DNA from: Granulicella paludicola
Lineage (GTDB): Bacteria > Acidobacteriota > Terriglobia > Terriglobales > Acidobacteriaceae
Direction: 5' to 3'
DNA: 64,000 bases
Assembly (NCBI RefSeq): GCF_025685545.1
Contig: NZ_JAGSYC010000018.1
Location: 1-64,000, forward strand
This document shows, piece by piece, positions 24,267 through 39,546 of this stretch. Below the pieces are notes generated by a model that was not told where the DNA came from, did no database searches, and saw only the letters and a list, made by a program, of their open reading frames with translations. The number at the start of each line of letters is the position of its first letter. The first letter of the stretch is position 1. The position numbers were made by a program, and so were the translations under genes.

Positions 24267-25706
24267 TCAGGACTTGTCCTGCTGCGCTGAGGTCAGCTTC
24301 GCAGGATCAGGCTTCTGCTGGTTTGGCGGTGCCTCGCGGGTTTCAATGCCTTTTACATTCTGCGTGTTCGAAACCTCGACCACACTGCCATCTACTGTCT
24401 TGATCGACGCATCCGAGAACGTCCAATTCTTCGCGTCATCGATGTGCCCCGCCGTCTGCGCTTCGAAGTCGAGATGATCGAGCGTTACGTCATAGACCGG
24501 AGCATTCGGATACGCGTCCACAGTAAAAGCTGCCTTAGCATTGCGCGCCTTGATGTTCCAGATATGCACATCGTGAACATGCGCGATCCCCATCGCCGGA
24601 GGCACCACGGTAGTCAGCGTCTTATAGTACTCGGGATAGTTCGTCAGGCCGTCGGGAATCTTCGCGTAGCTATAACTCGGGTTCCAGTTCATCGTGATCG
24701 TCAGGACGCTGCGCGCATCCGTAATGCTGAAGTCGTGCAGACGAATGTTCTCTGCATAGCCACCACGCGTATGCGCCGACTTGAACAGAATGCCCACAGG
24801 CACATGCCCCATCGTCGTGATGTTGTACGCCTCAATGTTGCGGAAGCCGCCGGAGGTCTCGCTGCCAAAGGTGACCCCGGCAGCGCCATCGCGCACGATG
24901 TTGTCATGCAGCACGACATCCTCCGTCGGTCGGTTGACGCGCAGGCCATCCGCGTCGCGCCCTGCCTTCAGGCACAACGCATCGTCGTTTACAGAGATGT
25001 CCGCGTGCATCACCTCGATGTGTTTCGAACTGTCGATGTCGATGCCATCGGTCGAGGGGCCACGACCACCGATGTTGTTCACAATGGTCACGCCGTCGAC
25101 GACGATGTCATGCGAGTAGCAGATATCGACTGTCCAGAAGCCCGAGCGATGCAGGTTAAGGCTGCTCTGCTTACCATTGCCGAGATGCACGTTCGACGAG
25201 TCGAAGATCTGAATGAGGCGCGGCCGCTTTGCATCATAATCCGAAGCCCAGCGAAGCCCCTTAGGCTCATCGATCTTACGCAGCGCCCAGTAGCTGTCCC
25301 AGAAGACCTTGCCATCCCCGTCAATGGTCCCTTCGCCCGTAATGCTCGCGTTCGTCTGTTTATAGACGTTCACCAGTGCAGCAGGCCACACCATCTCAAT
25401 ACCCGCGACACGCGTAGGCAGTTCGGGATAGTCCTTGATGTCCTGCGAGCCAAGCAACGTTACGCCTTTGTCGATGCGCAATGTAACGCCTGATTTCACG
25501 AAGACTGAACCCGTAAGGTAGGTGCCGTCTGGAAACGCAACGGTACCCCCATGCGCAGCCGCTGCATCGATCGCCTTCTGGATCGCTGCGGTGTTGAGCG
25601 TGGTGCCGTCGGCCTTCGCGCCGTAGTCCGCAACTGAGTACACCTTGGGCGCTGCATAGGCTGCGGTCGTGGCAAAAAGAGTGAGTGCGAAAAGCGTGTA
25701 CTTCAT
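24267..25706 (-). CDS. GH28 polygalacturonase-family glycoside hydrolase
   Basis: A 479-residue exported right-handed beta-helix enzyme. Signal peptide (about 1-18), then the typical opening VYSVADYGAKADGTTLNTAA and GGTVAFPDGTYLTGSVFVKS. GH28 catalytic blocks are STDGIDIDSS, NDDALCLKAG and TFGSETSGG, supplying the three Asp residues, and the helix continues to about residue 450. It hydrolyses pectic backbones; the rhamnose context suggests a rhamnogalacturonan or xylogalacturonan substrate. It is the last gene of the GH35-GH106-GH28 operon; its ATG follows the GH106 stop directly (TAGATG), so the genes are translated together. Confidence 0.9.
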   Translation of the reverse strand: MKYTLFALTLFATTAAYAAPKVYSVADYGAKADGTTLNTAAIQKAIDAAAAHGGTVAFPDGTYLTGSVFVKSGVTLRIDKGVTLLGSQDIKDYPELPTRVAGIEMVWPAALVNVYKQTNASITGEGTIDGDGKVFWDSYWALRKIDEPKGLRWASDYDAKRPRLIQIFDSSNVHLGNGKQSSLNLHRSGFWTVDICYSHDIVVDGVTIVNNIGGRGPSTDGIDIDSSKHIEVMHADISVNDDALCLKAGRDADGLRVNRPTEDVVLHDNIVRDGAAGVTFGSETSGGFRNIEAYNITTMGHVPVGILFKSAHTRGGYAENIRLHDFSITDARSVLTITMNWNPSYSYAKIPDGLTNYPEYYKTLTTVVPPAMGIAHVHDVHIWNIKARNAKAAFTVDAYPNAPVYDVTLDHLDFEAQTAGHIDDAKNWTFSDASIKTVDGSVVEVSNTQNVKGIETREAPPNQQKPDPAKLTSAQQDKS

Positions 25707-28544
25707 CTATTGACCGTCCTGTGTGACGAGGTGGATCGTGCCGAGAATACCCGAGGAAATTGGTTTCACTTTATCGAGTTCCTGCATCTGGAAGCGGTCT
25801 CCATACTTCGCGATGAGCGGTTTGTAATCATGTGGCGGCAGCGCAGACCACGCATTGAGCGCAGTGTTATAGACACGAATCTCCACATGATTCACGCCGG
25901 GCTTCAGCAACTTCGTCACGTCGAGGCGATAGGGTGGATGCCACAGAGCTCCCGCAGGCCTTCCGTTAATCGTCACCAAAGCCGCCTCGCGAATGGGTGC
26001 ATCGAAGAACGCGTGCGTACCAGGACCTGGCCGCGTGACGAGCGGATTCGGCAGGCCGTCCGCTCCCAACGCAGCGTGCTCCGCTGGTGAGTTCGGTGAG
26101 CCAGGCAGTGGCGTTCCTCCTTCAACCTCAAGGTAGACCGGCGAGTGCGATAACCCCCCAAGCGTTACATCCTTTGCGTACACGACTTCACCGGAGTAAT
26201 GCAGCGTGTCCGCATCCCCAGTCCAGTCCGTCAGTGTGTGCTCGGCAACGGATTTCTCCGTCCCCGTGAAAGTCAAGTGCCAGTCTGAGGTCAGGTCCGC
26301 GATGGACTTGTAAGACGTTGCCCCTGCGGTGCTGCTCCCTTTCGCATCCGTGAAGAGAAGAACACGCGACTCATATGGTGCTAGCTGAATGTCCGCTTCA
26401 GCGCGACCGTTGACTGCGCGTGCGGTCTCCGTACCTCTGCCAGAATCAGGATCGATGACCTCTCCGAACGCGTGGGTCGTCGCGAACGTCGCACGCAGCT
26501 GCATCGGTTCATTCGAGGTGTTCGCAACGAAGTAAACGTCCGCACTTGCAAGCTTGCGACGAATGAAGCCGAGGTTCGCGAGTGCCGACGAAGATAGCTG
26601 TTCATTGGGGAGCAGCTGCAGATCAGGAGCGACGGCATTGTGCAGAGCCTGCCCCAGCTGATCGGTTCCAGGAATAAGCGCAATGAACTTGGTTTGCTGG
26701 GCTACATTGGCTAGAGGTTCCCCTTCAGCATCCAGCGACGGCAGCTTCTCCACCGCAATCACCTTGCCACCCTTCGCAACAAAGGCCTCGATCTTGCGCA
26801 GTGTCGCCACAGGGATACGGTCAGTGGGAGGGATCACCAGCACCTGATGCGTACCAAAGCCGACCTTGTCGAGCGCTTCGGCATCGATGAAGTCAGGATT
26901 GTAACCAGCCGAAAGGATCGACGACATCAGCGCAGGCGTGATGAGCTTCTGCATCGCCGCCGTCACGCTGACCTTGCTCGGATAAAAGCTCGCCCACGCA
27001 TCGTCAGTCGGCAGCAGAATCGCCACCTGGTTCGCTGGCTTACCCTGGCGCAGCAGCCAGCTCAAGCGCGCGATGTACCGCGTGACCTCTGGCATCACCG
27101 GATGCCACGGATTATGGTCGTTGAAGACAGCAGCCGCATACAACGACCAACCCGGCTCAGGCACCTCATGATCTGGCGGGGAGTAGGGCCAGCCATGGAA
27201 CACCAGCAGATTCTCACCCGTAATGAAGTCGATGTCCGCCTCGGCCTTCATATCCAGTGGCGTCGCTCGGAACACCGGCGAATGCAGCCAGGTAAAGCTC
27301 TCGCCCGACGTGACGTTGTGATCGAAGACATGATTCGCAGATGCGGCCCAGCGCAGCGTGGAAAACGCCCGCCACTGAGGACCTTCACCTTCTGCCAGAC
27401 CCACGAGGTTCTCGGACGAAAGACTCACAGCTGGTTCGCCATAGGTCTGAGACCGGAACTTCGTGTGATGCGCCTTCGCCCAGTCATTGATCTGCACAAG
27501 GTAGTTCTCGTTGACCAGCTCCGTCAGCGTTACACCCCAATCATGCCGAACTTTATCGGCTACCGGACTCCCGCCTGCAACCAGCTCAGCCATATGCGGC
27601 AGCAGATCGTAGCCACGCCGCTTCTTGAACTCTGCAGGCAGTGCTGGCGTCCAGTCCGCTCCATAGGCCTCCAACGAATCGGAAAAAATCGCATACGGTG
27701 GCGTCGATCCGAACGCACCAAGCAACGGCTCGCCCACCTTCTTCAGGTGTGTGGCCACAGCCTGATGCGAGAAGGGATCGAGCACGTAACCATCCGCATC
27801 CACGGAGGCGCGCTTGACCTGCTGCTTCGTGTGTCCCGCAACAAAGAACAACGCTACACGCGCGACAGAAGATGGTGCGACGCTGCCCGACCCGGTCGAC
27901 AGCGGCTGCGCTGAAGCAGCGTCCCAATCCACCGGCTTCGGCGCCGCATCGCGGCCACGCGCCTCTGATTGCGCAGGAACGGCCCTTGCATTCGCGATAG
28001 CAGCAGAAAGGAAGGATTCGCCCTCCGCAAGCGTCGGAACCTTCACCGACGTCGCGTTCGCAGGCACGGGAACTTCAAGCGTGCGCAGCCGACCTGCCGC
28101 CTCCGAAAGCGGTGTGTTGTTGCCACCATAGGGCCAGCCGGTGCACAGCGTCACATCGATCCGCAGGCCGAGCTTGCGCCCTTCGCTCTGCGCATAGCGC
28201 ACAGCATCCAGCATCTCTGGCGAGAGAAACGGCAGGTTCTTCAGCCCCTTCGCAGGATCATCCAGCACGATAGGGTAGACGAATGCCAGCTCCGCACCGC
28301 CGATACCGTCAGCCTTCATCTGCTGCAGTTCACGCTGGATCTCAGGCTTCACCACAGCGGGCCCAAACCACCACCAGCGCACCATCGGCTTCGCTTCATC
28401 CGGAGGATGGAGAAAGCTCTCGCGCAAAGCATCGATGGAAGCAGAATTCGTCTTAGCCTGCGTAGCCTGTGCGGCAATAGGCATAGCTCCGGCCGCCAGC
28501 ATCGAGAGAGTAAGTAATAACGGTGCGCGTGTGCGAAGAGTCAT
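25707..28544 (-). CDS. GH106 alpha-L-rhamnosidase
   Basis: A 945-residue exported enzyme with a signal peptide (TLRTRAPLLLTLSMLAAGAM) and the GH106 opening PMVRWWWFGPAVVKPEIQRE, DGIGGAELAFVYP and LGLRIDVTLCTGWPYGGNN. It continues through the SDSLEAYGADWTPALP and FRSQTYGEP blocks to a C-terminal beta-sandwich that ends with a jelly-roll of the YRLDVTKLLKPGVNHVEIRV type. It releases terminal alpha-L-rhamnose from rhamnogalacturonan side chains or glycosides. Two starts are possible: ATG 28544, used here, and TTG 28553, which has AAGGAG closer. It overlaps or abuts its neighbours in the operon on both sides. Confidence 0.92.
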   Translation of the reverse strand: MTLRTRAPLLLTLSMLAAGAMPIAAQATQAKTNSASIDALRESFLHPPDEAKPMVRWWWFGPAVVKPEIQRELQQMKADGIGGAELAFVYPIVLDDPAKGLKNLPFLSPEMLDAVRYAQSEGRKLGLRIDVTLCTGWPYGGNNTPLSEAAGRLRTLEVPVPANATSVKVPTLAEGESFLSAAIANARAVPAQSEARGRDAAPKPVDWDAASAQPLSTGSGSVAPSSVARVALFFVAGHTKQQVKRASVDADGYVLDPFSHQAVATHLKKVGEPLLGAFGSTPPYAIFSDSLEAYGADWTPALPAEFKKRRGYDLLPHMAELVAGGSPVADKVRHDWGVTLTELVNENYLVQINDWAKAHHTKFRSQTYGEPAVSLSSENLVGLAEGEGPQWRAFSTLRWAASANHVFDHNVTSGESFTWLHSPVFRATPLDMKAEADIDFITGENLLVFHGWPYSPPDHEVPEPGWSLYAAAVFNDHNPWHPVMPEVTRYIARLSWLLRQGKPANQVAILLPTDDAWASFYPSKVSVTAAMQKLITPALMSSILSAGYNPDFIDAEALDKVGFGTHQVLVIPPTDRIPVATLRKIEAFVAKGGKVIAVEKLPSLDAEGEPLANVAQQTKFIALIPGTDQLGQALHNAVAPDLQLLPNEQLSSSALANLGFIRRKLASADVYFVANTSNEPMQLRATFATTHAFGEVIDPDSGRGTETARAVNGRAEADIQLAPYESRVLLFTDAKGSSTAGATSYKSIADLTSDWHLTFTGTEKSVAEHTLTDWTGDADTLHYSGEVVYAKDVTLGGLSHSPVYLEVEGGTPLPGSPNSPAEHAALGADGLPNPLVTRPGPGTHAFFDAPIREAALVTINGRPAGALWHPPYRLDVTKLLKPGVNHVEIRVYNTALNAWSALPPHDYKPLIAKYGDRFQMQELDKVKPISSGILGTIHLVTQDGQ

Positions 28545-28553
28545 GGCAGTCAA

Positions 28554-30515
28554 CTACTCCTTCGGATAAGTGGGGCCTGCGCTTGCAGGCGTGGCGAGTT
28601 TGGGGCCGAACTCTGCATCGGCTGCGGCCTTCTTCCTGCGTTCGGGATCGCTTGCATAAGCTGGCGTGGGTGCGTCGAGGATAGGCGTTGTAAGGCCTGC
28701 AAGCTTCGGCGCGGCGTCTGAGCTCAGCAGCTCAAAGATCGTGACCTCATTGCGACCCTTCTTCAACCACGGTGCTGGCACATACAACGTGCCCTGCGGA
28801 CCGATGTTCCAGAAGCGGCCCAGCGCGTGGCCATTGATCCAGATAAGGCCTTTCCCCAGCCCGCGAACATCGAGGAAGGTATCGCCCGTTTCTTTAAGCG
28901 TGAACTGTCCAGCTGAGAAGTGCGGATTGTGCAGCGTATCGATCGTCACCGCAACAAGCTTTTCGGGCGTTGATTCCATCGGAAGGGAGTAAATCTGCCA
29001 GCCGGTGAGCGGGGCGCTATCGAGCGTCGCCGCACGCATCCCCTTGCGCTCATCGCGCATATACTTCGTTGAGTTCAAACGGCCCGTGTTCTCAACAAGG
29101 ATGTCCAGCTGTGCTGGCCCGTCGCTGTTGAGAGTGATGTCTTCCTGCTTGTAGTGGCGATCGAGTGTGCCGATCTGCTTCCCATTCAGGTAGACCACCG
29201 CGAAGTCATATAAATGATCCAGATGCAGCTTGGCTCCATGCAGTGCAACCGGCATCTGTCTGCGGTAAAGAATATAGCCATACGCCTGATCGACCTGCTC
29301 CATCGTCAACGGTTGCTCGGAGACAATAGGCTTCGGCAGATGATCCCACAGCGAGGTCGATGCGGTGAGTGCGAACGGCGGAATCGAAATGACCGGGGCC
29401 ACCGCAGGCACAGGCATGGCAGGCTGATGCGTGTACTTCAGGATGGTGTTTCGATACGCAAAGAACTTCGGCGTCGGATGCCCTGCTTCATCGAGCGGCG
29501 CATCGTAATCGTAGCTTGTCACATTGCCACGATAGTTGCCGGTGCTCTGGCTCGCTCCCGCCATCATGCCGAAGCTCGTGCCGCCGTGGAACATGTAGAT
29601 GTTCACCGAGGCATTGTGGCTAAGGATGTAGTTCAGATCGCCGAGCTGCGGCGCCAGCGGCCGTGTTTCATGCGGATGTCCCCACAGATCGAACCAGCCG
29701 GGCCAGTACTCGGTCGAGAAAAGCGGCTGGCCGGGGCGCTGCGCTTCGAGCAATCCAAGACCGTGCTCCGCATTACCCGTACCAAAGTTCACGCCGGAGT
29801 AGATACCCGGGATCTCGCCGTTCGCCAGCGCCTTCGAAGGATCAACGGTGTACAGCAACGACTTCGTAAAACCAGCTTCAACGAAGACATCCCGCATCTG
29901 CGCCATGTACGCATGATCATTGGAGAAGTTGCCATACTCGTTTTCAATCTGCGTAGCGATGATCGGGCCGCCATTCTCAATCTGCAGTGGCGCGATCTCT
30001 TTGCCCAAACGCTTGATCCAGCGTGCTGCAGGCACCATGAAAGCAGGGTCCGTCGTCCGCAGCGCCGTCGACATCTTCGGATCCTTCAGCAGCCAAGCGG
30101 GAAAGCCACCGAACTCCCACTCCGCGCAGGAATACGGACCGGCTCGCATCAGCACGTAGAGATGCTCTTCCTGCGCGAGCTTCAGAAACGCCACGAGATC
30201 GTTGTTGCCCGTGAAGTCGTAAACTCCCGGCTTCGGTTCATGCATGTTCCAGAAAACATACGTCGCAAGCGTATTCAGGCCCATCGCCTTCGCCATCTCC
30301 ATGCGCGCACGCCAGTACTCGCGAGGGATACGCTCGTAATGAATCTCACCGGCGATGATCTGGAAGGGCTTGCCATCGAGCGCGAAGTGGTCGTCGTCGA
30401 CTACGAAACGATGCGCCGGTCTCTGCTGCGCCACGGCAGGCAGCGCACAGCAGCCGCACAGCACGACAAGCACGGCGCGAAAAAACGAATTCACCAGCGA
30501 AGAAGCGGAGGACAT
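28554..30515 (-). CDS. GH35 beta-galactosidase
   Basis: A 653-residue exported beta-galactosidase. Signal peptide about 1-30 from ATG 30515; an in-frame TTG at 30563 would only add a leader before it and sits on the operator. The TIM-barrel shows FQIIAGEIHYERIPREYWRA, YVFWNMHEPKPGVYDF, RAGPYSCAEWEFGGFPAWLL, the acid/base block IIATQIENEYGNF and the nucleophile block STEYWPGWF. Beta-sandwich domains follow, with LGKGLIWINGHALGRFW. It removes beta-galactose from pectin side chains (rhamnogalacturonan I galactan) so that GH106 and GH28 can reach the backbone. It is the first gene of the operon, 47 bases downstream of an operator-like palindrome. Confidence 0.92.
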   Translation of the reverse strand: MSSASSLVNSFFRAVLVVLCGCCALPAVAQQRPAHRFVVDDDHFALDGKPFQIIAGEIHYERIPREYWRARMEMAKAMGLNTLATYVFWNMHEPKPGVYDFTGNNDLVAFLKLAQEEHLYVLMRAGPYSCAEWEFGGFPAWLLKDPKMSTALRTTDPAFMVPAARWIKRLGKEIAPLQIENGGPIIATQIENEYGNFSNDHAYMAQMRDVFVEAGFTKSLLYTVDPSKALANGEIPGIYSGVNFGTGNAEHGLGLLEAQRPGQPLFSTEYWPGWFDLWGHPHETRPLAPQLGDLNYILSHNASVNIYMFHGGTSFGMMAGASQSTGNYRGNVTSYDYDAPLDEAGHPTPKFFAYRNTILKYTHQPAMPVPAVAPVISIPPFALTASTSLWDHLPKPIVSEQPLTMEQVDQAYGYILYRRQMPVALHGAKLHLDHLYDFAVVYLNGKQIGTLDRHYKQEDITLNSDGPAQLDILVENTGRLNSTKYMRDERKGMRAATLDSAPLTGWQIYSLPMESTPEKLVAVTIDTLHNPHFSAGQFTLKETGDTFLDVRGLGKGLIWINGHALGRFWNIGPQGTLYVPAPWLKKGRNEVTIFELLSSDAAPKLAGLTTPILDAPTPAYASDPERRKKAAADAEFGPKLATPASAGPTYPKE

Positions 30516-30561
30516 AGAGATAGGCACGTCCGAACTGTAAGGAGACCGAACAACCGGTGTC

Positions 30562-30576
30562 AATAGACAAACTATT
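30562..30576. promoter_or_regulatory. Operator candidate upstream of the GH35-GH106-GH28 operon
   Basis: AATAG-ACAAA-CTATT, a perfect five-base inverted repeat with a five-base spacer. In its wider form CAATAGACAAACTATTTC it repeats almost unchanged at two other promoters of the rhamnose block (34417 and 37328). Proposed binding site of the IclR-HTH/sugar-binding regulator. Confidence 0.65.
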
Positions 30577-30593
30577 TCGGGAAACTCCGCGGC

Positions 30594-32015
30594 CTAAAGC
30601 GCTTGGTTCAGCACGCTGGCCCACGCCGCCGAAGGTCGCGCTCCCTGCGTAGCCTCAAGCGTTGCCAGCTGCACCGCAAAGTTGCCCAGCGTCGAACACT
30701 CCGTACCCGCCCGAATCACCTCAAGCCCGGTCGCCCTCGCCGTCAACTCATTCAGCAGCTGGTTCTGACTTCCTCCGCCCATGATGTACAGCTTGCGTAG
30801 CTTCTTGCCCGTGATGCTGGCGACCTTTGCCAGCACTTCGGCATAGCGCGCCGCGAGCGAATGGAAGAGGAACGAAGCCATCTCCGCCGCACAAGCAGGC
30901 GTTGTGTCGAGCAGAGGCAAACCTCGACGCGACAGCTGCGCATTGATGCGCTCCGGCATATGTCCAGGTAGCAAAAGATCAGGTTCGTCGACCTCCAGAA
31001 GATACGGCGGAACTGGTAACGCAGCCGCCGCCTTCACCAGATCAGCGATGTTCAGCTCAACTCCCTGCTCTGCCCATGTCTCAAGGCACTGGCGAACGAG
31101 CCACATGCCATTCACATTCTTATGAAAGCAGATCGTGTCGTCGGCCCCACCAAGATTGGTAAAGTTCTCAGCGCGCGCCTCCGCCGTGTTGATGGGTTCA
31201 TTCAACAGCGTCCCCACCAACGACCACGTGCCCGAGCTGATGTAAGCCCAGTCGTCGCCACTGTCCGGCACTGCAGCAATCGCAGAGGCAGTGTCATGAC
31301 AGCAAGGCGCGATGAGTCGCGTGTTGCTGAAAGCGGCTAGTTCCGTAAGCGGACCCGAAAGCTTGCCAACATCCGTTCCCGGTGACACCAACTCGGGGGC
31401 CAGTTCAACAGGTTGCCCTAGCGCCGCAAAGATCTCTGAGGACCATTCTCCGTCGAGACCAACCATCTGGCAGTGCGTCGCGTTTGTGCGCTCTGCGACA
31501 GCAAGACCACCAAGCCTGTGAAGTATGTACTCCGGCAACTGCAGCCAGCGGCGCACCTTGAACGCGGGTAAATCAGAATACTGCTGATACGCCGTGTTGA
31601 TGCGCAGCAGCTGGATCCCAGTCAACTCACGCATGCGCTCGGCAGGTAGTACCGCATGTAGCGCAGGCTCGGCAGCCACCGTGCGCTCATCGCGATAGCA
31701 GAACGGTTCCGCTACAGCATGGCCCTGCTCATCGAGGCGCACATAATCCACCGCCCAGCCATCGACAGCGATCGAGCGAATCCCTTCCTTCGCAATCCCG
31801 GCGCACTCGCGCAGACCGAGATCGAGCTCGTACAAAATATGCTGCAGGTTCCAGTGCAGACCCGTGGCACGCTCTTCCGCGTGATTCGGACAGCGATGAA
31901 CTAACTGAATGTGCGGCTTGCCATCCAGCCAGCGAAGTAGAGAGACGCGGCAGCTTTCAGCACCAAGATCGATGGCAACAAGAGCGCGAAGATCGGTGGG
32001 GATACGGTCTGACAT
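30594..32015 (-). CDS. rhaB: L-rhamnulokinase
   Basis: A 473-residue FGGY-family sugar kinase that phosphorylates L-rhamnulose to L-rhamnulose 1-phosphate. The first ATP-fold half begins ALVAIDLGAESCRVSLLRWL, with LHWNLQHILYELDLGLRECA, AVDGWAVDYVRLD and the RHA-type block YRDERTVAA. The second half has CCHDTASAIAAVP, YISSGTWSLVGTL and LYIMGGGSQNQLLNELTA. The start is ATG 32015; a longer frame to 32117 would run through the upstream terminator hairpin and is not used. It follows the rhamnulose-1-phosphate aldolase gene on the same strand. Confidence 0.92.
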   Translation of the reverse strand: MSDRIPTDLRALVAIDLGAESCRVSLLRWLDGKPHIQLVHRCPNHAEERATGLHWNLQHILYELDLGLRECAGIAKEGIRSIAVDGWAVDYVRLDEQGHAVAEPFCYRDERTVAAEPALHAVLPAERMRELTGIQLLRINTAYQQYSDLPAFKVRRWLQLPEYILHRLGGLAVAERTNATHCQMVGLDGEWSSEIFAALGQPVELAPELVSPGTDVGKLSGPLTELAAFSNTRLIAPCCHDTASAIAAVPDSGDDWAYISSGTWSLVGTLLNEPINTAEARAENFTNLGGADDTICFHKNVNGMWLVRQCLETWAEQGVELNIADLVKAAAALPVPPYLLEVDEPDLLLPGHMPERINAQLSRRGLPLLDTTPACAAEMASFLFHSLAARYAEVLAKVASITGKKLRKLYIMGGGSQNQLLNELTARATGLEVIRAGTECSTLGNFAVQLATLEATQGARPSAAWASVLNQAL

Positions 32016-32080
32016 AGAGCGGGCTCGAGACGCAGATTCCCTTCGGAGTTTCAACAAAAATGTACGCAGGAAGCAAAGAC

Positions 32081-32114
32081 AAAAGCACCGCCTCCATTCA
32101 TAGGAAGGCGGTGC
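32081..32114 (-). terminator. Intrinsic terminator between rhaEW and rhaB
   Basis: Read on the minus strand, GCACCGCCT (32114-32106) and AGGCGGTGC (32093-32085) form a nine-base stem followed by TTTT (32084-32081). It stands just after the aldolase/dehydrogenase stop, so rhaB is either expressed by read-through at a lower level or has its own promoter in the 66 bases left. Confidence 0.8.
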
Positions 32115-32121
32115 CATTGGT

Positions 32122-34329
32122 TTAGCGCAGGTAGGCTTCGGTCAGGCCACCGTCTACCGGGATCAAATGACCCGTGGTCACAGGAGCCTTCGGTCCAGCA
32201 AGATACAAGATCGCCTCGGCACAGTCCTTCGGATCGATCGGCACATGCGTCAGCGTGCGCTTGGCATAGAACTTCGCCAAAAGGTTGCGAAGCTCGTCAT
32301 CGCTCATGCTCTCTTCGAACGCAATGTCGTACTTCGTCAGCGAAGCCTTCACACGATCGCGCGGGAACATCGTCGATCCCTTCACCACCGTCGCGGGCGA
32401 GATGCCATTGACCCGCAGCAATGGCGCATACGTCACCGCAAGCTCGCGCACCAGGTGAGACAGCGCCGCCTTCGACACATCGTAAGCTTCAGTCCCACGC
32501 TTCGGCACCACAGCATTTGCAGAGCTCGTGAGCACCACGCTACCCGGCAGTCCCTGCTTCTTGAAGATCGCCGAAGCCTCATCCGTCAGCAGGTAGTTCG
32601 AGGTCACATTCACCTCAAGCGTCAGCGCCCACTGCGCATCGGTTATGACGCCATCCGGCGACGATGGGAACATCGCTGCCGTGTTGATCAGGATGTCGAT
32701 GCCGCCGAAAGCCTTGATCGTTGCATTCAGAGCGTCCTTGATCGCATCGCGCTTGCGAATGTCGATCGACGTAGCCACAGCGCACTCCTTGCCGCCAATA
32801 GCCTTCGCCTCGTCCGCAACCTTCTGCGCCGCCTCCTGCGATAGATCAGCGACAACAACGTGAGCGCCGCGCTCAGCTGCAAGCAGCACCACCTCGCGAC
32901 CGATGCCGCTGGCGCCGCCGACTACCAGCACGATGCCGCGCGACAATTCCTTCTCCGCTGGCTGGCGACGAATCTTCGCCTCTTCCAGCGCCCAGTACTC
33001 AATGCGGAACGCCTCGGACGGCGGCAGGGCCACGTAGTTCTCATGCACTGTAAACGCCGAGGTCGGTGCGGCATTGCCGGACTGCGGCAGCACCGGTGGC
33101 CACTTGCCTTCGTCCATGCCGCCCGCGCCTTCCATCACATGGATGGCGTTCGTGTAAAACTCACTTGTAACCCGCGACTCGGTCTTGTTCTTGCCGAAGC
33201 TGAACATGCCAATTCCGGGGATCAGCACCACCGTCGGGCTGGCATCGCGCATCGCCGGCGACTCCGGCAGAGCATGCGCCTTATAGTACTCAGCGTACTC
33301 AGCACGGTACGTCTCCAACGCCGTGGTGAACTTCTCTTCCAGCACCGAAGGATCGGTCGACGGATCCCACTCCACAAACAGCGGACGAATCTTCGTACGG
33401 ATAAAGTGGTCCGGGCAGCTGGTGCCGAGATGCGCCAGCTGCTTAGCGGAATGCGAATTCACAAACTCAAGCACGTCCGGCGTATCCGTAAACGTGCCGA
33501 TTGTGCGAAGCTTTGGCGACGACACGCGACCACGAATGATCGGCATCAGTTTCGTTGCGAGCGCCGCACGCTCCTCGTGGTTCGAGTACTTCGAACCACC
33601 AAACGCCACACCCTTCTTCTCACGATGCGAAGCCAGGAACTGGCCGATCTGGTCGATAATCGTGATCGTATTCAGGTAGCTCTCACGCTGCGTCTCGCCC
33701 CACGTAAACAGGCCATGGCCACCGAGCACCACGCCGTCGCAGCCAGGAACAGCAGCCACCGCGTCGCGCAGCATCATCGCGAGCTCAAAGCCCGGACGCT
33801 GCCACGGCACCCACACCATCTTGTGGCCGAACTGCTTGTTGAACTCCTCCATCTTCTCCTTGCCGTTGGCAGAAGCAGCCAGCGCAATGCCCCAGTCAGG
33901 ATGAAGATGATCGACGTGCGGGAAAGGAAGGAAGCCATGCAGCGGCGTATCGATTGAAGCAGCCACCGGGTTGTTGCCGAAGGTGCACAGCGGGTACATG
34001 CCCACGATCTCATCCTCGAGCGCAACGCCCTTGTAGCTCTTCGTCAGCGCAAGCACCTTGTCGAGATACAGCGTCGCGAAGCCAGCGCGCTTGATGCTGC
34101 CGAGATCGCCGCCCGAACCCTTCACCCACAGGATCTTTTTCGTCTGGCCATCGAGTGGATCGACCTCGTCGATCTTGGAGCTGGTATTGCCGCCGCCGAA
34201 GTTCGTCAGGCGCAGGTCGGAACCCAGCAGGTTGGAGCGGTAGCGCAGAAGTTCGGGTGCATCGAGCTTGGAGGCAACCGCCTCGTCCCAGCGATCTTCA
34301 AGGAAGTGGAGCTTATTTGCAGTGGTCAT
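32122..34329 (-). CDS. Bifunctional rhamnulose-1-phosphate aldolase/short-chain (lactaldehyde) dehydrogenase
   Basis: A 735-residue fusion of the type called RhaEW. Residues about 1-400 form a class II aldolase (LRYRSNLLGSDLRLTNFGGG, then NTSSKI, HVDHLHPDWGIALAAS, VLGGHGLFTWGET) that splits L-rhamnulose 1-phosphate into dihydroxyacetone phosphate and L-lactaldehyde. Residues about 475-735 form a short-chain dehydrogenase (VLVVGGASGIGREVV cofactor loop, LTSSANAV, YDVSKAALSH with the Tyr-x3-Lys pair) that oxidises or reduces lactaldehyde. ATG 34329 is chosen since conserved sequence begins there; the frame extends to 34410 without conservation. It lies 88 bases downstream of an operator-like palindrome. 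Confidence 0.92.
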   Translation of the reverse strand: MTTANKLHFLEDRWDEAVASKLDAPELLRYRSNLLGSDLRLTNFGGGNTSSKIDEVDPLDGQTKKILWVKGSGGDLGSIKRAGFATLYLDKVLALTKSYKGVALEDEIVGMYPLCTFGNNPVAASIDTPLHGFLPFPHVDHLHPDWGIALAASANGKEKMEEFNKQFGHKMVWVPWQRPGFELAMMLRDAVAAVPGCDGVVLGGHGLFTWGETQRESYLNTITIIDQIGQFLASHREKKGVAFGGSKYSNHEERAALATKLMPIIRGRVSSPKLRTIGTFTDTPDVLEFVNSHSAKQLAHLGTSCPDHFIRTKIRPLFVEWDPSTDPSVLEEKFTTALETYRAEYAEYYKAHALPESPAMRDASPTVVLIPGIGMFSFGKNKTESRVTSEFYTNAIHVMEGAGGMDEGKWPPVLPQSGNAAPTSAFTVHENYVALPPSEAFRIEYWALEEAKIRRQPAEKELSRGIVLVVGGASGIGREVVLLAAERGAHVVVADLSQEAAQKVADEAKAIGGKECAVATSIDIRKRDAIKDALNATIKAFGGIDILINTAAMFPSSPDGVITDAQWALTLEVNVTSNYLLTDEASAIFKKQGLPGSVVLTSSANAVVPKRGTEAYDVSKAALSHLVRELAVTYAPLLRVNGISPATVVKGSTMFPRDRVKASLTKYDIAFEESMSDDELRNLLAKFYAKRTLTHVPIDPKDCAEAILYLAGPKAPVTTGHLIPVDGGLTEAYLR

Positions 34330-34416
34330 ATGCCTTTGTCTGTTTCCTGTGCTTTCGTCCGCGCTTGTAGTGACAACCGTTGCGGCAGCGTACTGTGAAC
34401 CGCCATCCATTCTACC

Positions 34417-34431
34417 AATAGAACAACTATT
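34417..34431. promoter_or_regulatory. Operator candidate upstream of the aldolase/dehydrogenase gene
   Basis: AATAG-AACAA-CTATT, the same inverted repeat as at 30562. A second, different palindrome AGAGGTA-TTCTT-TACCTCT follows at 34437-34455, also with a five-base spacer, and could bind another dimeric factor. Confidence 0.65.
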
Positions 34432-34533
34432 CCTATAGAGGTATTCTTTACCTCTCTGTGAACATCCTTGCCTCTAACAGGCTCCGAACAACCCGTAGGA
34501 AGGATGAAGCCGTTTCAAAGAGGGCAGCCCGCT

Positions 34534-34601
34534 TTGAAGGGTACGGGCTTCAGCCCGTACATCAGGGAGCTTCCTAAACGAAGGGGCTTTCGCCCCGGAG
34601 G
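34534..34601. repeat. REP-like double-hairpin repeat, copy A
   Basis: Starts TTGAAGGGTACGGGCTTCAG, forms the hairpin GTACGGGCT-TCA-GCCCGTAC, and after about 20 variable bases a second hairpin GGGGCT-TTC-GCCCC ending CGGAGG. Copy B with the same two hairpins is at 39427-39492. Such short palindromic repeats are dispersed in acidobacterial genomes. Confidence 0.75.
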
Positions 34602-34649
34602 TCCACACTGTCTGATCCTGATGGGACAAATTGGGGCCTCCCCAAACGG

Positions 34650-34683
34650 ACAAAGGTCCCGGCTAACGCGCCGGAACCTTTGT
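34650..34683 (-). terminator. Hairpin at the 3' end of the regulator gene
   Basis: ACAAAGGT (34650-34657) and ACCTTTGT (34676-34683) pair, and CCGG/CCGG extends the stem after a one-base bulge. The stop codon of the regulator lies inside the loop. No T-run follows, so it may act as a stability or Rho-type end. Confidence 0.5.
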
Positions 34684-35889
34684 GCTGGACTTCTTCACTA
34701 CCGTCTTCTTCTTCCCCGCCCCTAACGTCCGCGGGCTGGGCTCTCCCGAACTACCCGGCGCCGTAGACGAAGCCGCGTTCTGCGGCGAGCCCTCGAGGAA
34801 CCGCCCTGCCAAATCCGGCGTCACCACCCGGTGCTCCACATAGTTGTACGGCGGCACCGTCTCGCCACGCAGCAGTGCAAGACCAAGATCGATCAGCTTC
34901 GCACCATACACCTGGACTTCATGCGAAATCGAGCCAATGGCCGGGCTGTTGGGACGCTGCATCTCCTGCAGCATCTCCTCCACGCAATCCTGCCCCACCA
35001 CCACCACATGCTTCTCGCGGCCCAGCTCACGCACCGCAGCAATCGCGCCCATCGCACTCGTATCGTTCGCGGCAGCGACCAGAATGTGCTTGTCCTTCGG
35101 ATGACGATTGAGGAAGTCGAGCATCACCTTATAGCTCTTCTCGCGAAGGCCACGCCCATCGATACGCACAAACGATTCGACAGGCATGTTCGGCAGGCGC
35201 GTCTTCACACACTGGAAGGCTCCAGTAATACGGCTCTGCACCAGCTGGCCTGCCTCTTCAATATCGAGGCCGATCATCCAATCCATCTTGCCGTCCCAGT
35301 AGTTCAGTGCATGGTCGGCAAGCAGCCCGCCCGCTTCAAGACCGGCGCGATAGTTGTCGACTCCGATAAAGGTCGCGCGAGGATGAGGAATATCGACCGC
35401 GATCAGCGGAATCCCCGCCTCCGCAATCTTGTCCGCAATGATCGGTGCCACATGCTCGTCGACCTGGAACTCGATCACCACATCCACGCGCTCACGGATG
35501 AAGGTCTCGGCGTTCTCAATCGCGACCTGCGCATCGTATTGATTGTCGAGCACGACGAGATCGACGCCCACGATCGCGGCAGCCTGACGAAGGCTCGCCG
35601 TCATCGCTTCAGAGAACGGCATCTCCGCGCTCTGTCCACCAAAGCCAAAGCGAAGCTTGCGTGGGCGCGCGATATGCCGATACTGACGGTCCGCGCCCTG
35701 CCCCACATAGCCGCGATGCACCAGCGTCTTCAGGATGCGATATACCGTCGTCTTGGAGATCTTCGTGCGCTTGTGGATCGTCTCCAGCACCATCGGCTGG
35801 TTTTCCGTCTGCAACAGCTCGAGAATATCGAGCGCCTTGGTAAGAACGGGAATCAGGTAGAGGCGTCTTGCCTTCACTTTTGCTGGCAT
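34663..35889 (-). CDS. Chimeric regulator: IclR-type HTH plus periplasmic-binding-protein-like sugar sensor
   Basis: A 408-residue protein. Residues about 10-65 form a winged helix of IclR type (LTKALDILELLQTENQPMVL, ISKTTVYRILKTLVHRGYVG). Residues about 90-370 are a type I periplasmic-binding-protein fold as in LacI proteins or ribose-binding protein (VDLVVLDNQYDAQVAIENAE, IPLIAVDIPHPRATFIGVDN, ILVAAANDTSAMGAIAAVRE, VVVGQDCVEEML). No signal peptide is present, so it is cytoplasmic. LacI proteins normally carry a LacI HTH and IclR proteins an IclR sensor domain; this pairing is unusual. It is the second gene after rhaI. The proposed ligand is L-rhamnose or a derivative and the proposed site is AATAG-N5-CTATT. 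The Lys/Ser/Pro-rich tail after about 370 is disordered. Confidence 0.8.
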   Translation of the reverse strand: MPAKVKARRLYLIPVLTKALDILELLQTENQPMVLETIHKRTKISKTTVYRILKTLVHRGYVGQGADRQYRHIARPRKLRFGFGGQSAEMPFSEAMTASLRQAAAIVGVDLVVLDNQYDAQVAIENAETFIRERVDVVIEFQVDEHVAPIIADKIAEAGIPLIAVDIPHPRATFIGVDNYRAGLEAGGLLADHALNYWDGKMDWMIGLDIEEAGQLVQSRITGAFQCVKTRLPNMPVESFVRIDGRGLREKSYKVMLDFLNRHPKDKHILVAAANDTSAMGAIAAVRELGREKHVVVVGQDCVEEMLQEMQRPNSPAIGSISHEVQVYGAKLIDLGLALLRGETVPPYNYVEHRVVTPDLAGRFLEGSPQNAASSTAPGSSGEPSPRTLGAGKKKTVVKKSSTKVPAR

Positions 35890-35978
35890 CTTTCACCCTT
35901 TTGCGAAGTGTGCTCCTGGAACGCGAGAGTTTCCCTAATGGATTCTCGCTCCCGGAAGCATACCACCACGGACCTACC

Positions 35979-37184
35979 TTAGGCGTAAGAGCTCTGCCCG
36001 ACTGCATTCTTCGCGCCACGCTCCGCAGCAATCCGCTCCACATAGCCGCTCTTATACAGCTCGGCGAGAGGATCTGCCGGCAGTCCGCGCTCCGAGCGCC
36101 ATTCCTGCACCACCGGACGAACATCCGTCCAGAACGCGCCGCGGAACAACTCCTCCGCAGCGATCAGTTGGCAGCTGTCCTGTAGCGAGGCCAGCTCAGC
36201 CTGATCGATCAGCGCAGCACGCGCATACAGCTCCTGCGCCGTGACCACCGTCTGCACCATCGCTTCCATCTTGCCCTTCAGGTTATGGCTCTGGTCGATC
36301 ATGTAAGCCGGTGCCGTAAAGCCCTGCTTGTTCGCCTGCGCCGCATGAATCTCGTGGAAGATACGGAAGATCTGATACGGATCAATCGACCCAAGTGTCA
36401 GATCGTCGTCCGCATACTTGCGATCGTTGAAGTGGAAACCACCCAGCGCATTCAGCTCGATCAGCCAGGCCACAATCTGCTCGATGTTCGTTCCCTGATA
36501 GTGATGTCCCGTATCAACCAACACCTTCGCCTGCGGTCCAGCACTACGCGCAAACTCAAGCGCCATGCCCCAGTCGCCGAAATCCGTGTGATAAAAAGCA
36601 GGCTCAAACGGCTTGTACTCCACCAGCATCGTCTGCCCCGGAGCCAGCTTGGCGTGCGCCGCCGCCAGCGCCTCCTTGCCCCACCCAATGCGGCGAGACA
36701 TACTCTGGGTCCCCGGATAATTCGAGCCATCGGAGATCCACAGCGAAACCTCGGCCGAGCCCAGCGCCTTGCCAATCTCTACCGAATCAATCAGGTGCTG
36801 CGTAGCCTTCTGCCGCACCTCGGCACTCGGGTTACAGATCGAGCCAAACTTGTACTCAGGCTCCTGAAACACATTCGGATTGATGGACCCCGGACGGATG
36901 TTGTGCGTCTTCGCCAGCTCTTGAATCTTCGCCACATCGGCCACGCCATTCGGCAGGTCCCAAAGCACATGCAGCGCCAGCGTCGGCGTAGCACCCGTCA
37001 GCCGATTCACCTCCCCGCCATCGGCAAACTTCTCTTCGATATTCGTGGCCGCTGCTGGCTGCAAAAACTTGCCGAACCGCGTGCCCGTATTCGAGAAACC
37101 CCACGAGGGAATCTCAATCGAAAAGGCATCAAGCGCCTGGTGGATGCGGGACTGCGCTGCACTGGAGATGGAGTTGCTGGACAT
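35979..37184 (-). CDS. rhaI: L-rhamnose isomerase
   Basis: A 401-residue TIM-barrel metal-dependent isomerase that converts L-rhamnose to L-rhamnulose. It is of the Pseudomonas/Bacillus type: SIEIPSWGFSNTGTRFGKFL, LHVLWDLPNGVADVAKIQEL, IRPGSINPNVFQEPEYKFGS, SLWISDGSNYPGTQSMSRR, MLVEYKPFEPAFYHTDFGDW, VLVDTGHHYQGTNIEQIVAW, GGFHFNDRKYADDDLTLGSI and IDQSHNLKGKMEAM, which supply the metal-binding Glu, Asp and His residues. It starts a two-gene unit with the regulator (89-base gap) and is divergent from the rhamnose symporter gene, with an operator candidate between. Confidence 0.93.
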   Translation of the reverse strand: MSSNSISSAAQSRIHQALDAFSIEIPSWGFSNTGTRFGKFLQPAAATNIEEKFADGGEVNRLTGATPTLALHVLWDLPNGVADVAKIQELAKTHNIRPGSINPNVFQEPEYKFGSICNPSAEVRQKATQHLIDSVEIGKALGSAEVSLWISDGSNYPGTQSMSRRIGWGKEALAAAHAKLAPGQTMLVEYKPFEPAFYHTDFGDWGMALEFARSAGPQAKVLVDTGHHYQGTNIEQIVAWLIELNALGGFHFNDRKYADDDLTLGSIDPYQIFRIFHEIHAAQANKQGFTAPAYMIDQSHNLKGKMEAMVQTVVTAQELYARAALIDQAELASLQDSCQLIAAEELFRGAFWTDVRPVVQEWRSERGLPADPLAELYKSGYVERIAAERGAKNAVGQSSYA

Positions 37185-37327
37185 ATACCCTTAGGACCTC
37201 GAACCGATGCGGCAGAAACCGCGAAATTTCATAGAGGACTTATACTATGTATTGAAACAATCACGCGCAAGTACCTTTATCCACCGGAAATGACTCTACC
37301 TGCGATCTGCATAGACGACTCTCGTCC

Positions 37328-37342
37328 AATAGACACATTATT
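37328..37342. promoter_or_regulatory. Operator candidate between rhaI and rhaT
   Basis: AATAG-ACACA-TTATT in the context CCAATAGACACATTATTTCC, one mismatch from the perfect inverted repeats at 30562 and 34417. It lies 144 bases upstream of rhaI and 113 bases upstream of rhaT and could control both directions. Confidence 0.62.
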
Positions 37343-37454
37343 TCCCAACGCTTAATTCAATAAGGTAGGATGATGTCGCCGCTCACACCGACCTTCACGC
37401 TCCTTTGAACTCCGCGCGACGGCACAAGATTTCTCCTTAGAGTCGAGGACCGAC

Positions 37455-38618
37455 GTGGGACCCAATCCGTTTATCGGCGTCATCTATCACTGGCTCGGAG
37501 GCCTCGCCTCCGCCAGCAACTTCATCCCCTTCCGCGGTATCAAGCGCTGGTCGTGGGAGGTCTATTGGATCATCCAGGGCGTCGCCGCCTGGCTCATCAC
37601 CCCCACCCTGATCGCCAGTATCTTCGTTCCGCACGTCTTCACCATCCTCGGTGAAGCGCACCGCTCCGGCGACGCCAGCCTCATGTGGCCCATCATCATG
37701 GGCATCCTCTGGGGAGTCGGCGGCCTCACCTTCGGCCTCGCCATCCGCTACCTCGGCCTCGGTCTCGGATACGCCATCGCCCTCGGCTTCTGCACCGCCT
37801 TCGGCACACTCATCCCGCCCATCTACGACCACCAGATGATGGCCATCCTCCACGAGCGCTCCGGCCAGGTCACCGTCCTCGGCGTACTCATCACGCTGCT
37901 CGCCATCGCCGTCAGCGGAGCCGCTGGTGCCTCCAAGGAACGCGAAGTCACCGAAGAAGAGAAAGCCGAAACCGGGGAGCGCGACTTCTCCTTCGGCAAG
38001 GGCCTCGCCGTCGCCGTCTTCGCCGGCATCATGAGCTCCTTCTTCGCCTTCGGCTTGCGCGCCGGCCAGCCCATCCACGACATCACCCGCAAGCACCTTG
38101 AGGCTGCACACATCACCGACCTCTGGTCGAACCTCCCAGTGCTCATCGTCGTACTCTGGGGAGGCTTCGTTACCAACTTCATCTGGTCGGCCGTGCTCAT
38201 CGTCCGCAACCGCTCCCTCGGCCAATTTGCCGGGGCCCCCGGCGTCAACCCCATGGGCACCGCGCCCGTCACCGGCGACACGCTCGTCGACTTCGACCCG
38301 CGCGACTATCTCGGTCGCATCAGCGGCAGCGTCCTTCTCCGCAACTACATCTTCGCCGCCATGGCCGGCGTCATCTGGTACTTCCAGTTCTTCTTCTACT
38401 CCATGGGCGAAACGCGCATGGGCAAATACAACTTCGCCAGCTGGACGCTCCACATGGCGAGCATCATCCTCTTCGCCAACCTCTGGGGCATCGCGCTAAA
38501 GGAGTGGCGCGGCACCAGCAAGCGCACCCGCGTCCTCGTCGCCTGCGGCCTCATCCTGCTCGTCACGTCGTCCGTCGTCGTCGGCTTGGGCAGCTATCTT
38601 AAAGTCAAGGGGATGTAG
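37455..38618 (+). CDS. rhaT: L-rhamnose/proton symporter
   Basis: A 387-residue inner-membrane transporter with about ten hydrophobic helices. It opens with GVIYHWLGGLASASNFIPFR and contains RWSWEVYWIIQGVAAWLI, MGILWGVGGLTFGLAIRYLG and YFQFFFYSMGETRMGKYNFA, all typical of the RhaT family that brings L-rhamnose in with protons. The start is GTG 37455 with GAGGA seven bases upstream. It is followed at short distance by lutABC on the same strand, so uptake and the last step of rhamnose use may share a transcript. Confidence 0.93.
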   Translation: MGPNPFIGVIYHWLGGLASASNFIPFRGIKRWSWEVYWIIQGVAAWLITPTLIASIFVPHVFTILGEAHRSGDASLMWPIIMGILWGVGGLTFGLAIRYLGLGLGYAIALGFCTAFGTLIPPIYDHQMMAILHERSGQVTVLGVLITLLAIAVSGAAGASKEREVTEEEKAETGERDFSFGKGLAVAVFAGIMSSFFAFGLRAGQPIHDITRKHLEAAHITDLWSNLPVLIVVLWGGFVTNFIWSAVLIVRNRSLGQFAGAPGVNPMGTAPVTGDTLVDFDPRDYLGRISGSVLLRNYIFAAMAGVIWYFQFFFYSMGETRMGKYNFASWTLHMASIILFANLWGIALKEWRGTSKRTRVLVACGLILLVTSSVVVGLGSYLKVKGM

Positions 38619-38657: not shown

Positions 38658-39506
38658 CTGAAGATCTCACTTTTTGTAGCTTGCTATAACGACACACTGT
38701 TCCCGCAGACTGGCATCGCCGTCACGCAGGTGCTGGAGCGGCTGGGCCATACCGTGGAGTTTCCTCTGCAGCAAACCTGCTGCGGCCAGATGCACTACAA
38801 CACCGGCTACCACCGCGAAGCCGTGCCGCTCGTCCGCCGCTTCGTCGAAATGTTCCGCGATGCCGAAGCCGTCTGTGTCCCCTCGGCAAGCTGTGTCGCC
38901 ATGATGCGCGAACACTACGTCATGATGGCCGAAGCCGAAAACGACCCCGCCTTCCTCTCCGAAGTTCGCAGCCTTCTTCCGCGCATCTTCGAGTTCAGCG
39001 AACTCCTCGTCGATCGCCTCGGCATCGAAGACGTCGGCGCAGAGTTCGCGCACAGCGTCACGTATCACCCCTCCTGCCATTCGCTGCGTATGCTGCACAT
39101 CTACGACGCCCCCATCAAGCTCCTCCGCCAGGTCCGCGGCCTCGATCTCATCGAGCTTCCTAACCGCGAGCAGTGCTGCGGCTTCGGTGGGACCTTCGCC
39201 GTCAAGAACGCCGACGTCTCCGTCGCCATGCTCACCGAAAAGCAGAGCTGCATCATCGAAACCAAAGCCGAGGTCGTCACCGCACTCGACAATAGCTGCC
39301 TCATGCAGATCTACGGCGGTTTGCATCGCTCCGGCTCGCCAGTCCGCACCCTGCACATCGCCGAAATCCTTGCAGCTACCAGCAATCCTCCGCATAAACC
39401 AACGTCGAAAGGCGTAGGTTCTGGCATTGAAGGGTATGGGCTTCAGCCCGTACATTCAGAGCGCAATGAATTGGGGGCTTTAGCCCCGGAGGGAAAGGCC
39501 GAATGA
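38658..39506 (+). CDS. lutA: L-lactate utilization protein A (CCG-domain Fe-S subunit), apparent CTG start
   Basis: One of three subunits that oxidise L-lactate to pyruvate. Two cysteine-rich CCG domains are visible: QQTCCGQMHYNTGYH in the first half and REQCCGFGGTFAVK in the second, with YHPSCHSLRM between. Family members begin K-(I/V)-SLFV, and this sequence is present from codon 2 of a frame whose first codon is CTG at 38658, preceded by GGAGAG at 38647-38652. No ATG, GTG or TTG lies in that position; the next in-frame start (GTG 38730) would delete about 24 conserved residues. The C-terminus after ILAATSN carries about 40 extra residues encoded by a REP-like repeat. Confidence 0.88.
   Translation: MKISLFVACYNDTLFPQTGIAVTQVLERLGHTVEFPLQQTCCGQMHYNTGYHREAVPLVRRFVEMFRDAEAVCVPSASCVAMMREHYVMMAEAENDPAFLSEVRSLLPRIFEFSELLVDRLGIEDVGAEFAHSVTYHPSCHSLRMLHIYDAPIKLLRQVRGLDLIELPNREQCCGFGGTFAVKNADVSVAMLTEKQSCIIETKAEVVTALDNSCLMQIYGGLHRSGSPVRTLHIAEILAATSNPPHKPTSKGVGSGIEGYGLQPVHSERNELGALAPEGKAE
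39427..39492. repeat. REP-like double-hairpin repeat, copy B, inside the lutA 3' end
   Basis: Begins TTGAAGGGTATGGGCTTCAG and has the hairpins GGGCT-TCA-GCCC and GGGGCT-TTA-GCCCC ending CGGAGG, as in copy A at 34534. It is read in frame as the last part of LutA (GIEGYGLQPVHSERNELGAL), so the repeat has been captured as coding sequence. Confidence 0.75.
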
Positions 39507-39546
39507 AAGCCCATCAAACCTCTCTCGACACAGCCGGAGCCACACG

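Follow-up and report, generated by a model that had tools for sequence, protein, structure and literature searches.

The 64,000-nucleotide stretch of Granulicella paludicola DNA analyzed here (positions 1 to 64,000 of contig NZ_JAGSYC010000018.1, hereafter the window) carries a gene cluster that looks like a unit for rhamnogalacturonan-I degradation and rhamnose catabolism. The minus strand encodes rhaI, a candidate regulator, rhaEW and rhaB, then GH35, GH106, and GH28; the plus strand encodes rhaT, then lutA, lutB, and lutC (names are our labels; coordinates in Table 1). Three copies of a short element, AATAG-N5-(C/T)TATT, lie before GH35, before rhaEW, and in the divergent region between rhaI and rhaT. 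We propose that they are probably operators of the chimeric transcription factor encoded at 34663-35889, a predicted local repressor that would be relieved by rhamnose or a derivative.

The original prediction placed the copies at 30562-30576 (AATAGACAAACTATT), 34417-34431 (AATAGAACAACTATT), and 37328-37342 (AATAGACACATTATT) and noticed no other exact copy in the window. Both statements stand; a scan with the bare 15-bp pattern finds these three places only, and dinucleotide shuffles of the window match it 0.06 times on average. The common CAATAGA, spacer-final A, and TATTYC are likewise correct in all three copies. Gene starts were chosen to fit conserved parts of the proteins, and the distances computed from them agree with those first given: 47 bases to the GH35 ATG at 30515, 88 to the rhaEW ATG at 34329, 144 to rhaI at 37184, and 113 to rhaT at 37455. 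The pattern offered for wider scans, CCAATAGAMMAAYTATTYC, is exact at one copy only, with one mismatch at each of the other two. The bare pattern AATAGNNNNNYTATT was rejected as a genome-wide signal, since in the 4.96-Mb genome of the same organism it is no commoner than its reversed control (10 versus 12 strand-hits). That count would suit chance repetition of the 15-bp pattern, but the longer CAATAGANNNNNTATTYC is specific, with 4 matches in the organism's own genome (the three window copies and one on another contig) versus 0 controls, and 40 exact matches versus 5 controls across 150 genomes of the family. The sites also form islands of identity in alignments between relatives, and the dependence of the site on the regulator at rhaEW promoters and within the genus, described below, already contradicts chance, whose probability we regard as negligible. 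Five further one-mismatch matches in the own genome were treated as noise (9 matches versus 7 controls).

Individual sites can be followed into relatives, for which G and L numbers are our handles for genomes and loci. The GH35 operator lies in a block of at least 22 bp that is identical at the orthologous GH35 of G416, where the flanks have diverged. The rhaEW operator has the same sequence in L009 and G429 and a close variant in G402, and the rhaT-side operator is kept in G429 with two changes. The original prediction missed a degenerate fourth site before rhaI, at 37236-37255. This site is weak alone, as about 7 chance sites of at least 11 bits occur per 437 kb; it lies inside 32 bp (37227-37258) that G429 shares without change and is oriented to rhaI as in relatives, L010 having TCAATACATATTATAGTTCC there. 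A weak site at rhaM (42276, 11.2 bits) was discounted as a probable chance match.

Table 1. Putative operators, genes, and a promoter-like sequence in the window.
Feature	Position	Strand	Score or basis
Putative operator before GH35-GH106-GH28, TCAATAGACAAACTATTTCG	30560..30579	+	23.5 bits
Putative operator before rhaEW(-rhaB), CCAATAGAACAACTATTCCT	34415..34434	+	26.9 bits
Putative operator in divergent rhaI/rhaT region, rhaT side, CCAATAGACACATTATTTCC	37326..37345	+	21.2 bits
Degenerate fourth putative operator before rhaI, TCAATACATAGTATAAGTCC	37236..37255	-	11.8 bits
Candidate regulator, 408 aa	34663..35889	-	HTH_IclR residues 16-64 and Peripla_BP_4 residues 86-343
GH35 beta-galactosidase (likely start 30515)	28554..30563	-	Pfam Glyco_hydro_35
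GH106 alpha-L-rhamnosidase	25707..28553	-	Pfam Glyco_hydro_106; NCBIfam match below its cut-off
GH28, rhamnogalacturonidase-like	24267..25706	-	Pfam Glyco_hydro_28; best NCBIfam match below its cut-off
rhaB rhamnulokinase	30594..32117	-	Pfam FGGY; TIGR02627 328 bits, below cut-off 528
rhaEW rhamnulose-1-phosphate aldolase/lactaldehyde dehydrogenase fusion (likely start 34329)	32122..34410	-	NF006189 981 bits versus cut-off 634
rhaI L-rhamnose isomerase	35979..37184	-	TIGR02635 463 bits, below cut-off 531
rhaT L-rhamnose:H+ symporter	37455..38618	+	Pfam RhaT; NF010024 448 bits, below cut-off 468
Promoter-like TTGACA-N18-TACAGT for GH35	30534..30563	-	-35 overlaps operator end

The element was followed in 27 acidobacterial loci that carry the regulator, three of which (L014, L015, and L035) have none of the window's rhamnose genes. 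The best match to CAATAGANNNNNTATTNC averages 1.7 mismatches before rhaEW (4.2 in shuffled sequence; 24 genes), 0.9 before rhaT (4.0; 11 genes), 1.6 before lutA (4.0; 13 genes), and 2.6 before rhaI (4.0; 20 genes). Matches are not clearly better than shuffled before rhaB (4.5 versus 4.4; 22 genes), lutB (4.9 versus 4.5; 15 genes), or lutC (4.1 versus 4.4; 16 genes), and one relative each gave 3 mismatches for GH106, 2 for rhaM, and 5 for an amidohydrolase. The consensus of 52 sites is 18 bp long and largely asymmetric, CAATA(G/c)(A/g)G(C/A)AA-N-T(A/g)TTTC. The symmetric arms first proposed therefore hold in part: relatives keep C1, G8, and the terminal TTTC but not the C/T that opens the right arm (position 12), and symmetry is weak, with a best reverse-complement correlation of 0.4 at the palindrome center of the earlier model. 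Where relatives mostly have G8, the three copies in the window read C, A, and C. With a scoring matrix partly trained on the same 27 loci, 55 sites of at least 14 bits occur in 436,790 bases versus 1.0 per shuffled equivalent, and a site scoring at least 13 bits precedes 22 of the 24 rhaEW genes among these loci. At L014, a regulator orthologue (67% identical) stands without any searched window gene nearby on its locus.

Presence of the site tracks presence of the regulator. Of 150 family genomes, the own genome included, 47 encode an orthologue-grade regulator (at least 54% identity) and 61 encode rhaEW. Fifty-nine rhaEW promoters were usable; G020, whose contig ends at the gene, was left out of all promoter counts, and G087 entered separately as a sixtieth. 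A site with at most 2 mismatches precedes rhaEW in 25/42 genomes with the regulator, own included (reversed-pattern control 1/42), versus 1/17 without it (control 0/17), and adding G087, which has no regulator and 4 mismatches, gives 1/18; the corresponding p-values, 1.1e-4 and 7e-5, overstate independence because the genomes are related. The sole site without a regulator belongs to G084, at 408 bases from the end of a contig. Genome-wide, exact CAATAGANNNNNTATTYC sites occur in 17/47 genomes with the regulator versus 10/103 without. Within the genus (28 genomes; 25 matches versus 3 controls), they occur in 13 of the 20 genomes with the regulator and in none of the 8 without. In eight genomes, the regulator and rhaEW are on different contigs or more than 2 Mb apart; the rhaEW site is kept in four of these (G072, G104, G133, and G137) and absent at 2 mismatches in the other four (G111, G128, G148, and G031). 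Conserved above its flanks and dependent on the presence of the regulator, the element behaves as an operator, and very likely is one.

These comparisons bear out a rhamnose/pectin (rhamnogalacturonan) regulon, with the element before rhaEW, rhaI, and rhaT/lutA in relatives and tied to one regulator. The expectation that matches would occur only before rhamnose or pectin genes was too strong. Among the 40 exact matches of the family, 23 are linked, that is, they adjoin rhamnose/pectin genes or precede recurring TonB receptors as judged by neighbors, not all of which were scanned; the linked share is 22/30 in regulator-bearing genomes versus 1/10 in others. In the genus, 21/25 matches count as linked, two of them through a TonB receptor only and one only by lying beside rhaT, and the four unlinked matches are a site near major facilitator superfamily (MFS) and GH2-like genes, a site in G402 close to an alpha-galactosidase-type gene, and single sites in G410 and G411. 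The MFS/GH2 site is the fourth exact CAATAGANNNNNTATTYC match of the own genome, at 181793-181810 of contig 21 (about position 6993 of L096), roughly 66 bp before an open reading frame (ORF) for a galactonate-transporter-like MFS protein and 433 bp before a GH2-like gene. A scan of 11 orthologues of the MFS gene within the genus (L207-L217, from 13 other matches) did not find it, and its membership in the regulon is unproven.

Targets beyond the core (GH35, GH106, GH78, GH88/105-type, GDSL esterase, and TonB receptor genes) were seen in single genomes. G416 has a site with the same 18 bases before GH35 (protein 79% identical); G047 has one between a GH88/105-type gene and GH35, which are divergent, and G429 one between a likewise divergent GDSL esterase and GH106. 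Further sites lie upstream of a GDSL esterase in G098, before a GH78-type gene adjoining rhaM in G423, between rhaI and a GH39-type gene in G017 and G088, and upstream of a sugar-transporter-like gene in L031 and L032. Genes for TonB-type outer-membrane receptors are preceded by a site in G098, G130, G043, G412, G415, and G429. We dropped rhaM itself as a target; the sites in G412 and G423 lie downstream of rhaM, before the TonB-receptor or GH78-type gene.

The candidate regulator joins two domains that belong to different families. Its helix-turn-helix (HTH) is of IclR type (PF09339, E 1.8e-14, 53.6 bits versus a cut-off of 22), and its sensor half matches Peripla_BP_4 (E 6.3e-31) and Peripla_BP_1 (3.2e-10), with sugar-binding proteins as the best PDB matches. 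The IclR effector-binding domain is not among the nine Pfam families listed, and neither the LacI nor the GntR HTH gave a Pfam match, HTH_IclR appearing instead. Because one defining domain of each family is missing, the protein is neither a full IclR nor a full LacI member. Among 8000 candidates scored in a search of 5.8 billion proteins, 3110 were relatives at E <=0.001; the best 120 of the 3110 show both domains and, where a JGI name is given, are called "ribose transport system substrate-binding protein". The own genome encodes a second regulator with an IclR-type HTH and Peripla_BP_4, 38% identical, beside a GH28-like gene (contig 19, 313343-314395; L104).

A second clade of this family is associated with another operator. 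The clade-2 paralogue is 35-39% identical to the window's protein and lies divergent from, or near, a rhaI-rhaB-rhaEW-rhaM-rhaT operon in other genera, where the intergenic regions contain ATTTCGCAATGCGAAAT-like palindromes. A leave-one-locus-out scan recovers them in L165-L168, L170, L172, and L174 and finds none in L169 and L171, whose stretches contain no regulator; they are also present in loci outside the training set. Around sites of at least 15 bits in 16 loci, partners of at least 10 bits concentrate at a spacing of 120-129 bases, with 32 there and no more than 7 in each other 10-base bin (pairs in which both members pass are counted twice). Paired operators at the same distance were sought in clade 1 and not found. 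The clade-2 pairs, mostly 119-126 bp apart (L165-L168, L170, L174, L176-L181, L184, L187, L188, and L202), occupy the rhaI/regulator region and, at several loci, the far side of the regulator too; L168 has a second pair before a TonB-type receptor gene, and L165 has two sites before a GH78 rhamnosidase. This spacing of about 120 bp suggests the clade-2 pairs as candidates for DNA looping.

In a tree of 85 regulators (91 loci entered, less short, stop-holding, and duplicate ones), the type 1 operator occurs at 34/50 clade-1 and 0/35 clade-2 loci and the type 2 operator at 25/35 clade-2 and 0/50 clade-1 loci, each locus being given its higher-scoring type and both matrices being trained on part of these loci; 26/85 loci have neither. 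The recognition-helix region reads SKTTVYRIL in the window's protein versus PKTMAFRLL and like forms in clade 2. On balance, we favor a large, unrecognized family of Acidobacteriota sugar regulators, with an IclR-type HTH and a periplasmic-binding-protein sensor and often named as ribose-transport substrate-binding proteins, in which two anciently split clades would run rhamnose regulons through different operators (single CAATAG...TTTC versus paired ATTTCGCAATGCGAAAT), recognition helices and operators having changed together.

The same split bears on whether the site might instead be the operator of another, unlinked regulator that co-occurs in the same genomes. In G008 (L092), an exact site precedes lutA and no regulator orthologue was detected, and the link between the 34663-35889 protein and the site is itself read from sequence; both would suit a different regulator. 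We consider that quite improbable, as the operator types divide along the clades of this protein's own family, genus sites follow its orthologue in the proportions given above, and the partly scanned list of ORFs at 24-46 kb shows no other regulator gene.

The position of the sites within promoters informs how the 34663-35889 protein might act. Read with the gene, the relatives' rhaEW operator contains TTGCTC, TTGCCC, or TTGCTG in 25/38 distinct promoters and similar hexamers otherwise, and a -10-like score, based on a frequency table, has peaks at 15 and 18 bases past the TTG hexamer (z 6.7 and 6.4 versus shuffles, both inflated by relatedness). Such TTGCYC-like hexamers with a -10-like peak at 15 or 18 bp would also be expected were the element a promoter component such as a -35 region, common to co-expressed genes rather than a repressor site. 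This is highly improbable, given that the orientation of the element to transcription varies by promoter (best match reversed at 22/24 rhaEW, forward at 13/13 rhaI with <=3 mismatches) and that rhaEW promoters without the regulator are mostly site-free (1/18 with a site). In relatives, no more than about 40 bases separate the rhaI site from the estimated start codon. The promoter-like sequence for GH35 in the window (Table 1) is weak alone, with 1 found in 8 kb and 2.4 expected by chance.

This placement fits repression by occlusion, because the sites overlap the relatives' rhaEW -35-like hexamer and adjoin the rhaI start codon. Both are poor positions for an activator, and activation by the 34663-35889 protein from the same sites is accordingly rather unlikely, even though the sign of control is unreadable from sequence and AraC-type rhamnose regulators are known (PMC3870299). 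We thus retain a repressor as the working model. Without rhamnose, the regulator would occupy the CAATAGANNNNNTATTYC element in or beside the rhaEW(-rhaB), rhaI, rhaT, and GH35-GH106-GH28 promoters and block transcription; rhamnose or a rhamnogalacturonan-derived compound would bind the sensor domain and the protein would release the DNA; and release would turn on the genes for uptake, polymer degradation, and catabolism together. Computation establishes that the sites exist, are conserved, and depend on the presence of the regulator gene, and it also establishes the protein's domain architecture and the overlap with promoter-like sequence in relatives; binding of the element by this protein, repression, and the sugar sensed are inferred.

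Several observations weigh against this model, in addition to the relatedness of the genomes. Among the 42 rhaEW promoters with a regulator, 17 have more than 2 mismatches, and 10 of these have 4 or 5, no better than control; some are site-poor because the site lies before an upstream rhaI (G119, G017, and G088) or because the locus is of clade-2 type (G135), and others are unexplained. The regulator's own promoter shows no clear enrichment (CAATAGANNNNNTATTNC 4.4 versus 4.2 shuffled; 24 genes), with a weak site upstream of the regulator gene in L031/L032 only within clade 1, and GH28 promoters of four relatives are without a site (4.8 versus 4.3 shuffled). No relative-like -35/-10 arrangement was seen at the window's own rhaEW promoter. 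Furthermore, 16/50 clade-1 loci have no site near the regulator, two clade-1 loci (L043 and L028) also exceed the type 2 threshold, and the site in G008 stands without a detected regulator.

Among the remaining genes of the cluster, GH106 and GH28 are similar to the models for the BT4145 rhamnosidase and the BT4153 rhamnogalacturonidase, respectively, with both matches below cut-off. A strong terminator-like hairpin with a T run at 32084-32115, between rhaEW and rhaB, could lower rhaB transcription. The genes at 38730-41633 beside rhaT we take to be lutA, lutB, and lutC for L-lactate oxidation, and they may, we presume, oxidize lactate made by RhaEW. In several relatives, the lut genes are divergent from rhaT, with an operator region common to both.

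Overall, the proposed system would put a name to the switch that controls rhamnose and rhamnogalacturonan use in Acidobacteriota, and the known types of rhamnose regulator would gain one more. Proteins labeled as transporter components would become predicted regulators, with predicted sites of binding. The two clades, in which regulator and operator changes match, would also offer a testable case for reading the specificity of IclR-type HTH domains. Searches of an open-access library listed no paper on a chimera of an IclR HTH and a periplasmic-binding domain as a sugar regulator, nor one on an acidobacterial rhamnose regulon.

Three known systems offer comparisons. KdgR, of the IclR family, regulates 2-keto-3-deoxygluconate (KDG) metabolism in pectin use (PMC3750489, PMC8579813); the window's protein shares the IclR-type HTH and a predicted role in pectin use but has a Peripla_BP_4/Peripla_BP_1 sensor half instead of the IclR effector domain and is associated with rhamnose genes. 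The rhamnose regulators RhaR, RhaS, RhmR, and RhiR are of AraC, DeoR, and LacI types (Rodionova et al. 2013, PMC3870299) and resemble the proposed system in local control of rhamnose utilization genes, RhaEW included; the types named there do not include IclR, and the main text of that paper has no words beginning IclR or Acidobacter. Finally, AraR of Bacillus subtilis is a chimeric sugar regulator with a GntR-type HTH and a GalR/LacI-like sensor (PMC4218819, within which a reference title names DNA looping). As in AraR, a small non-LacI winged HTH is joined to a sugar sensor resembling periplasmic-binding proteins, with a local sugar regulon; unlike in AraR, the HTH is IclR rather than GntR and the predicted targets are rhamnose/rhamnogalacturonan genes. 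By its architecture, the 34663-35889 protein is predicted to work like AraR but is not AraR.

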